Source of the DNA: Zasmidium citrigriseum
Lineage: Eukaryota > Ascomycota > Dothideomycetes > Mycosphaerellales > Mycosphaerellaceae
Length of the DNA: 64,000 nucleotides
Assembly (NCBI GenBank): GCA_002786025.1
Contig: NHNW01000011.1
Span: 124,001-188,000 of the forward strand
Direction of reading: 5' to 3'
The notes under the pieces were generated by a model. It had not been told where the DNA came from. It saw only the letters and a program-made list of their open reading frames with translations, and did not search any database. Positions 4,742-6,171 of this stretch are shown piece by piece. Every line of letters begins with the position of its first letter. The stretch's first letter is position 1. The translations under genes were made by a program, and so were the position numbers.

Positions 4742-5257
4742 CCTAAAGCTAGTCCGTCTCGACTATAAATATCCTTAAAAGCCTCTCGTAAAATAGTACT
4801 AGCGAAGGCGCCGCGTAAAACTATAAAAGTACCTTAATAAAAGAAGAGAGCTAAGATAGCGATTAGAAAGGTATAAAAAAGCGTAGCCTAAACTAGGCGT
4901 AAGAAAGTTATTACGAAGAAAACGGATTATAATATACCTCGTAAACGACGAAAATTTAATACTAGTCGAGCTACTCTACGTAAGATTCGGAAATATTAGA
5001 GCTCTACGAAATCCGAGTATTCTCTCCTTATATAAAAGATACTCTTCTAACGACTAGTTCGAGAGATTTCTAGCGAGTAGGCTATAGGTAGGGAAATTAT
5101 AAGATAGTAGGCGTCCGCGATTAAGGTATTATAAGAAGCCGCTAAAGCGTTCCTTATCTTAGAATTTAAGTACTCTAACCTACTAGCTATCTACGCGAAA
5201 CGCGTTACCCTTATATCGAAGGATATAGCTCTATATAAAAAGCTACGGTAGCGCTAG
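4742..5257 (+). pseudogene. RIP-mutated histone H3-like gene, copy A
   Basis: One frame without any indel reads as a histone H3 relative with both tail and fold. In the tail, *-I-S-L-K-A-S-R-K (4,766-4,792) matches H3's QT-ARKS region once TAA>CAA and ATA>ACA are undone. AKAPRK follows (4,802-4,819), matching GGKAPRK. A long basic linker precedes PRKRRKF (4,937-4,957). The fold begins LRKIRKY (4,976-4,996; H3 LREIRRY), then RLVREI, R-*-*-ASAIKVL-*-EAAKAFL (H3 FQSSAVMALQEASEAYL), NLLAI-YAKRVTL-I-SKD (H3 [16 protein letters not shown]) and a basic end. Internal TAA/TAG codons sit at Gln or Trp positions. The residue after LLI differs from canonical H3 and the loop before ASAI is longer, as in CENP-A types. 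The true start is unclear and no expression is possible as is. Function: it would have been a nucleosomal core histone. It may be a captured host gene or an element-encoded histone. Confidence 0.82.
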
Positions 5258-5649
5258 ACTAGCTAAGATTAGTAAGAATAGTACTAATAAATATCTATTC
5301 TTCCCTAAGTCTTTCCGTATATTTTCCCGCGTTTTTAAGCGGTATATAAAGGGTTTTTACCCGTAGTAAAGTATAAGGTAAAGTATAATCCCTATAGCTT
5401 ACTATACGTTTTTTCCCTAGCTTCTACTAGCTATATAGGCTAGCTATAGCTCCTTCCCTATATTCTTTAATATACCTACTATTATATATACCTATAATAT
5501 TATACGAAACGCTAGTATAAAATACTAGTCGTAATCTTAAATCCTCTAATACTATAATACCTACCCCTACCGCCGCTTTAGCCTATTTTAAGCGCTCTAA
5601 CTACCTACGACGCCCGGAAAAATTTATATATACTTTACCTTACCTTATT

Positions 5650-6171
5650 ATAGCGCGTATAAAGAGACCTACCGCGTAAGCTAAGGCGTTAGTAGCGAAA
5701 GCGCCTCGTAGGTAGCTCTCTACTAAGGCGCTACTAGGTATTGCTTATACGCGTAATATTAAGATACTAGGTATAAATAGTTAGGAAGGCTATACTTTAA
5801 CGCTTTAGTAGTAACTTCGTAAGCCCGTAGCTAGTACTCGTAGCTAGTAGGTCGCTAACGCTTTAATAGAGAGACACTTTCGAGAGACGCGATATCTCTA
5901 GGAAATTCCGCCTAACTAGGAAATCCCTTTCGCGCTATTCTCGCGCCTTATACGGGAAATAGTATAGAAAGAGTATATAGACTAGGCTAAGAGAGTTAGG
6001 CGTTATATCGAAGATAAGAGTAAATATATTTATTTCGAGCTACGCTAGAAGAAAGATATAATCTAAGCCCTCTAATATACTATAGTATATATACTATATA
6101 ATATATTTAAAGGTATATTCTACGTAGCTAGTAAGCGTAGCTAGCGTATACTAATAATTTTTAGCCGCTAA
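5650..6171 (+). pseudogene. RIP-mutated histone H3-like gene, copy B (divergent)
   Basis: A single indel-free frame starts at ATA (a former ATG) with A-R-I-K (ancestrally MARTK, exactly the H3 N-terminus). AKAPRR-*-LSTKA follows, matching H3 KAPRKQLASKA. The fold is more diverged than in copy A: EIPFALFSRLIREI (5,920-5,961; H3 LPFQRLVREI), then an insertion of about 20 residues, then FELR-*-KKD-II-*-AL-* (H3 DLRFQSSAVMALQ), and a stretch ending FYVASKRS-*-RILI that aligns roughly with [12 protein letters not shown]. All interruptions are TAA/TAG. It lies about 390 bp after copy A on the same strand. The two are too different to be a recent duplication. The C-terminal limit is uncertain. Confidence 0.72.

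Follow-up and report, generated by a model that had tools for sequence, protein, structure and literature searches.

H3-carrying hAT transposons are already known from fungi, either with one or two H3 copies killed by RIP (PMC6710886) or with an intact copy (PMC3538342), as described in the accessible parts of these two reports. The first describes a 9.5-kb hAT of Pseudocercospora fijiensis in which each element holds one or two H3-like copies, all of them inactivated by RIP, together with the same kind of hAT in five more Mycosphaerellaceae; the genera covered are Pseudocercospora, Cercospora and Sphaerulina. Where one P. fijiensis element holds two H3-like copies, the second has a 16-residue insertion, which was taken as a mutation that preceded amplification. 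In the second report the element comes from Pyrenophora tritici-repentis and is an intact hAT carrying one H3-like gene, and the accessible text of PMC6710886 states that the Mycosphaerellaceae hAT consensus sequences show no similarity to this element. Among the papers listed by full-text literature searches, none on H3-carrying hATs appeared beyond these two, whose existence contradicts the original prediction that no fungal element of this kind had been described.

The stretch of DNA that we analysed, referred to as the window, is a 64-kb part of a 44.4-Mb fungal genome, and all lineages compared below come from this one genome. Two H3-like relics in the window, A and B, belong to one hAT DNA transposon of about 9 kb, which we call family 1. 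Going by the accessible description in PMC6710886, this element shares with the P. fijiensis hAT an 8-bp target duplication, terminal inverted repeats of about 20 bp, one or two H3-like copies and RIP in AT-rich blocks, at a length of 8.95-9.06 kb as against about 9.5 kb. A second H3-like copy with extra residues is found in both elements, as compared by description. The two differ in their recorded domains, since DUF659 but no dimer domain is given for the P. fijiensis H3 element in that part of the report, whereas the element described here has a dimerisation region and its family 1 loci are without DUF659. They differ as well in how the histone is read: the P. fijiensis H3 was taken for a captured intronless host transcript, whereas in the present element introns are predicted in B, and A is diverged and apparently selected. 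The H3L hAT of P. tritici-repentis, at 5.6 kb, with near-identical, mostly intact copies and one H3-like gene, is set apart by its description in the accessible parts of PMC3538342. New to the present analysis are six diverged transposon-H3 lineages, their separation in trees, the purifying selection indicated for A and an intron of B whose codon and phase are shared by three lineages.

The window also holds an intact host gene resembling that of the DNA-repair protein Rad7/rhp7 (32974-34836), located on a GC-rich island with AT-rich blocks on either side. The encoded Rad7-like protein is 84% identical to that of Zasmidium cellare, 76% to that of Lecanosticta acicola and 67% to those of Cercospora and Pseudocercospora, and on the strength of this one protein the host is probably a new one, a member of the Mycosphaerellaceae outside the three genera of PMC6710886. 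Elsewhere in the window, an ORF at 40317-41162 contains a stretch that by eye resembles a bZIP basic region (RRRIQNRIAQRNYRE), and AT-rich DNA at 12970-13213 holds a short direct repeat (72 bp at 82%) together with 30 bp that are perfectly self-complementary. No Rfam match was found anywhere in the window.

A search of the genome with window positions 4700-6200 returned 17 DNA matches. Twelve places match at 88-100% identity, each covering at least half of the query, and represent 11 copies of family 1 (at least 88% DNA identity, window copy included), the C3 copy being split over two places; the remainder comprise one short piece in C23 and four places at only 70-77%. Full-length copies measure 8950 bp (C61), 9056 bp (C120) and 8981 bp (C60), and each of these three is flanked by an exact 8-bp target site duplication (gagaggac, cttctact and tctaagtt, respectively); the flanks of the interrupted C3 copy, the fourth checked at both ends, do not match. 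The terminal inverted repeats are imperfect, reading TAGACGACGAAGTAGGCTAGG on the left and, on the other strand, TAGATACCGAGGTAGGCTAGG on the right. The window copy begins about 3.4 kb into the element, element position 3402 corresponding to window position 2403. Throughout the element, the genes follow the order transposase, H3-A, H3-B on one strand (Table 1). In C120 the hAT dimerisation region PF05699 sits 5' of A (C120:310126-310260) and scores 30 bits (E 1.6e-5), or 22.8 bits (E 8e-5) in a second scoring, against a cut-off of 21.4; the window copy is not among the 11 scored hits. DUF659 gave seven hits in the genome, none of them at a family 1 locus. In the L015 part of C120, without the first 999 bases of the element, none of the six frames contained it.

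Table 1. Features of the family 1 hAT copy, in window coordinates
Feature	Position	Strand	Basis
Family 1 hAT copy, 5'-truncated, RIP-saturated	2403..8057	+	Further copies match collinearly at 88-95% DNA identity
Relic of the C-terminal part of the hAT transposase, with coding frames at about 2403-2955 and 3023-4336	2403..4336	+	Translated matches to family 2 and other H3-bearing loci; excess of transversions in codon position 3
hAT C-terminal dimerisation region PF05699	3989..4123	+	Position carried over from C120 copy
H3-like gene A, intronless within histone fold	4691..5251	+	Pfam Histone 69 bits; AlphaFold helices; Foldseek nucleosome H3 chains
B exon 1, H3-like tail, C120 reading MARIKRPTAQAKALAAKAPRRXLSTKA	5650..5818	+	Aligned copies and H3 profile
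B predicted intron 1, 51 nt, GTAAGC...CTAAC...AG	5819..5869	+	Pattern seen in 9 of the 11 copies searched
B exon 2, with an alphaN-like stretch, alpha1, a long insertion of about 19 aa in loop 1, and alpha2	5870..6112	+	Spliced reading
B predicted intron 2, 52 nt, GTATRT...TACTAAT...TTTTTAG, phase 1, codon matching H3 D106	6113..6164	+	10 of 11 copies searched; eleventh without the region
B exon 3: alpha3, then extension with repeated RTLRKR.RVALPKPV, glutamate run, charged sequence	6165..6797	+	Spliced reading
B predicted intron 3, 50 nt in C120, GTAAGT...TTTACTAAC...CTAG	6798..6847	+	Pattern search in copies
B exon 4, C-terminal extension	6848..7760, end as read here	+	Spliced reading
Right terminal inverted repeat of hAT	8037..8057	+	Comparison of element ends; sole end kept by window copy

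The window copy is heavily mutated by RIP. C120, the least mutated of the 11 family 1 copies, differs from it by 649 substitutions, of which 628 are C>T or G>A changes from C120 to the window copy (587 of these in CpA/TpG context) and just four are transversions, indicating that the copies were nearly identical when RIP acted. The ratio (CpA+TpG)/(ApC+GpT) is 0.01 in the window copy as compared to 1.3 in the host part 33001-43000. Near-identity of the copies at the time of RIP also explains why A and B are free of indels, and the absence of indels alone is thus no evidence of selection. Because RIP yields transitions only, we used transversions as a RIP-proof clock in the comparisons between lineages. 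These results bear out what had been proposed at the outset on RIP and on a multicopy, mobile origin of this DNA. The interval first put forward, 4742-6171, does take in both relics, but the element itself extends beyond it on either side.

The frame of A (4742-5290, plus strand) contains 20 stops in 183 codons (12 TAA, 8 TAG, no TGA) and aligns without gaps to ten other copies, one of them partial. Reading the stops as Q gives it 69 bits (E 5.8e-19) and reading them as W 62.4 bits, against the curated Pfam Histone cut-off of 26.4 bits. The AlphaFold model of the C120 reading has helices alphaN, alpha1, alpha2 and alpha3 at a mean pLDDT of 63.8, and with this model Foldseek retrieves nucleosome H3 chains. 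The N-terminus would lie either at an in-frame ATG of C120 at 4691 or in an upstream exon across a predicted intron ending at 4738; a start at an ATG with the intron right behind it finds no support in C120, which has ACG at that site. Among the 120 best of 411 hits in a protein search with A is P0002, an intact metagenomic protein of 164 aa with 49% identity across 89% of A, and the two have in common the ending EF..NLLAI.AKRVTLM..D..L..KLR.R. The strongest hit among the same 120, P0001 from Rhododendron, consists of two ordinary H3 domains in tandem, and its score therefore says nothing about kinship. A giant-virus source for the histones gained no support from the one scan of viral contigs made with P0002, in which none of nine pattern matches was confirmed.

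The frame of B holds 18 stops (6 TAA, 12 TAG, no TGA) and is gap-free in 11 copies, two of which are partial or end early. Position 5650 reads ATA in the window and is an isoleucine codon in 10 of the 11 copies; the idea that ATA is a former ATG finds its ATG in C120, the single copy that has one. Without splicing, the B frame gives no Pfam hit. Once its three predicted introns are removed, B of C120 reaches 23.2 bits against Pfam Histone (E 9.1e-5), below the same cut-off that A exceeds; for this reason B is termed H3-like here and is not counted among the Pfam histones. With the introns spliced out, the score on an H3 profile climbs from 8.2 to 28.5 bits in C120, where the best of 200 shuffled sequences reaches 3.2 bits, from 0.1 to 19.5 in L014, from 1.9 to 18.0 in L009 and from 1.2 to 12.0 in the window copy; this gain is partly dependent on the choice of splice sites, which was made with the H3 alignment in view, while the conserved GT, branch and AG motifs are independent of it. 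Removal of intron 2 shifts the frame, is needed to reach that of alpha3 and joins alpha2 to alpha3 with the junction read as FKAANLITLNGKCVTLMXKDL. For intron 3, the donor GT is intact in only one of ten copies holding the region (C120), and the rest of the pattern is present in 10 of 11. As read here, B comprises 652 residues, about 490 of them past the histone fold, and exon 3 includes a 51-bp direct repeat (6459-6510 and 6570-6621). A protein search with the first 440 aa of spliced B yielded 4245 candidates, none at E <= 0.001. The element's introns in the C120 copy (window-equivalent positions 2971/2984, 5826/5839, 6123 and 6806/6819) carry a motif, CGTAGCYRGYA, just before the branch site, often as a tandem pair, and introns that bear it may be related to one another, as introner-like elements are.

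Together, these data confirm the core of the original prediction, namely that two H3-like relics lie here in single indel-free frames broken by TAA and TAG only, and that a transposon codes for a pair of diverged H3-like proteins of its own. The two sequences are indeed too different to be products of a recent tandem duplication. The relationship of B to H3, which had been called good, holds after predicted splicing of C120 but is weak on the window copy alone; likewise, with stops read through, the Pfam profile recovers A and leaves spliced B short of the cut-off.

The genome contains 49 Pfam Histone matches, 38 of which hold three or more TAA or TAG stops; 28 of these 38 stop-bearing loci were translated at least once, along with extra family 1 and family 2 copies. 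They resolve into six diverged transposon-H3 lineages, which are family 1, family 2, the A5, C11 and C133 types, and the C1 locus, which holds three H3 genes. Family 2 has about 66% DNA identity to family 1 where the two can be aligned, is collinear with it and has related ends, and transposase-like matches are present at all three family 2 loci in the family 1 arrangement. At C133 and C70 the transposase-like match and the H3 gene occupy opposite strands, and the match at the C1 locus is antisense; no such match was found in the stretches at L022, which is at a contig end, and L028. The latter belongs to the C11 type, a seven-copy RIP-mutated H3 family (L028:4560-4898, L033, L035, L037, L038, L039, L041), and 10 kb at L028 searched in six frames gave no hAT or other mobile-element domain. 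The host itself has, besides H3 (L001) and CENP-A (L003), an apparently intact, strongly diverged H3 variant (L002:1495-1764, minus strand).

Intron 2 of B interrupts the coding sequence after the first base of the H3 D106 codon and measures 52 nt in family 1, 51 nt in family 2 and 48 nt at the C1 locus, in the second of its H3 genes, whereas the exons of host H3 and host CENP-A are intronless at this codon. In family 2 the donor GT is kept in two of three copies, L023 among them, and reads AT in L021. In the C1-locus gene (L020:8550-8876) the 48 nt form an in-frame, intron-like insertion of 16 codons, equal in length to the 16-aa insertion given for P. fijiensis in the accessible parts of PMC6710886, from which we infer that the published insertion may correspond to B intron 2.

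In a nucleotide alignment of C120 of family 1 with L024 of family 2, transversions in A fall at codon positions 1/2/3 in the numbers 20/20/44 (P 2.5e-4), with 10/9/27 in the histone fold, and those in the transposase in the numbers 53/44/91 and 44/49/84, while the stretch between A and B is flat at 27/23/23. This pattern indicates that A is under purifying selection comparable to that on the transposase. The B exons, which align poorly between the families, give 152/121/160 (P 0.062), and the signal of selection on B appears weak. When A was compared in protein-guided alignments of six lineage representatives, P was below 0.05 in 11 of 15 pairs (uncorrected, the pairs not being independent). 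No significant excess was seen in the other four, family 1 with A5, family 1 with C133, family 2 with C133 and A5 with C133; third codon positions are near saturation in several lineage pairs.

In a 43-row tree, from which two long rows (host_H3v and H3_Gonium) were left out, all 27 transposon H3 rows and P0002 fall on one side, apart from cellular H3 and CENP-A, with support of 83/89; in a 27-row version support is 65/90. With an alignment of only 95 columns, the separation is not decisive.

We consider it probable that the histones are resident genes of the transposon lineage that were under purifying selection while the element was active, given the selection on A, the shared position of the B intron, the six lineages and the separation in the tree. 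Conservation of the order transposase-A-B in a second, deeply diverged family also supports residence, as does a 4-aa insertion between alphaN and alpha1 that A of families 1 and 2 have in common. We lean, with somewhat less assurance, to the full reading, in which the two relics represent genes H3-A and H3-B of a hAT of about 9 kb, resident and selected and not recently captured from the host, whose products would have been variants acting in host chromatin. On the other side stand the short tree, the weak signal of selection on B, the four lineage pairs in which A shows no significant excess, the L028 stretch of the C11 type with no hAT domain, the opposite strands at C133 and C70, and the ARKT tails of other lineages. 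The account published for P. fijiensis, as far as the accessible parts of PMC6710886 go, is instead passive transduplication, by which a hAT captured a host H3 transcript that was copied along as useless cargo and then killed by RIP. Such an origin fits the lack of introns inside the histone fold of A, and the 27-row data do not reject a tree in which A joins host H3 (p-AU 0.45). Yet cargo of this kind does not sit well with the way in which transversions in A are spread over the codon positions between families, with diverged copies in several lineages and a gene order conserved in two, or with introns in B at a site that is uninterrupted in host H3, and for the element described here we regard transduplication as unlikely.

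Two other explanations were weighed. A could be derived from CENP-A or resemble it, bringing the element to centromeric chromatin or disturbing that chromatin. The nearest solved structure to A is S. pombe Cnp1 (3e-25), followed closely by Arabidopsis/plant H3.1 (1.6e-24), and the only significant solved relative of B is Drosophila CID (3.4e-4). Family 1 A shares with CENP-A/CenH3 the H3 fold, a longer loop 1 and the tryptophan in R-W-Q, and the latter two are CENP-A-like features of A in family 2 and A5 too. However, the C1_7446, C11 and C133 types and P0002 carry F in place of the tryptophan, which thus looks derived within the group, and the CID match of B spans predicted intron residues. 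Constraining A with fungal CENP-A is not rejected (p-AU 0.375 and 0.317), but free trees do not group the two, and p-AU falls to 0.088 for W-type A. Taken together, we find a CENP-A mimic improbable. Alternatively, A and B, perhaps with H4, might contribute a nucleosome-like or histone-fold component to the transposase complex, helping with DNA bending, with excision or with the choice of nucleosomal targets. Their position next to the transposase on the same strand in families 1 and 2, selection on A at the level of the transposase and the long charged extension of B would all be in keeping with such cofactors, while the opposite orientation at C133 and C70 is not, and we think this role rather unlikely.

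If A and B are resident, selected chromatin proteins, they would have been made in life as histone variants pairing with host H4, and would take the place of host H3, or compete with it, on an element that had just arrived or within the transposase complex. They would in this way keep the DNA of the element from being packed and marked as heterochromatin, until RIP later killed the copies, of which the window copy would be one remnant. An anti-silencing role of this kind is possible, though we hold it with considerable doubt. Silencing of the DIM-5 type in filamentous fungi works through H3K9 methylation, and A and B of family 1 are both without the ARKS context of H3 K9, which would suit escape from this mark; ARKT is present in the tails of other lineages, so not every lineage has lost the K9 context. 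More speculative still is the idea that a DNA transposon family has long encoded its own H3 pair, one member fused to a long extension, with which it builds element-specific chromatin that evades silencing, and that the published captured housekeeping gene represents the same resident genes misread.

Were the histones resident and selected, a eukaryotic DNA transposon would be maintaining its own nucleosome components. The reading in the accessible parts of PMC6710886, that of a housekeeping gene copied by accident, would then change, and the 16-aa insertion reported there for P. fijiensis is predicted to be an intron. Whether mobile elements use variant H3 to fight silencing or to get around it would also become a testable question.
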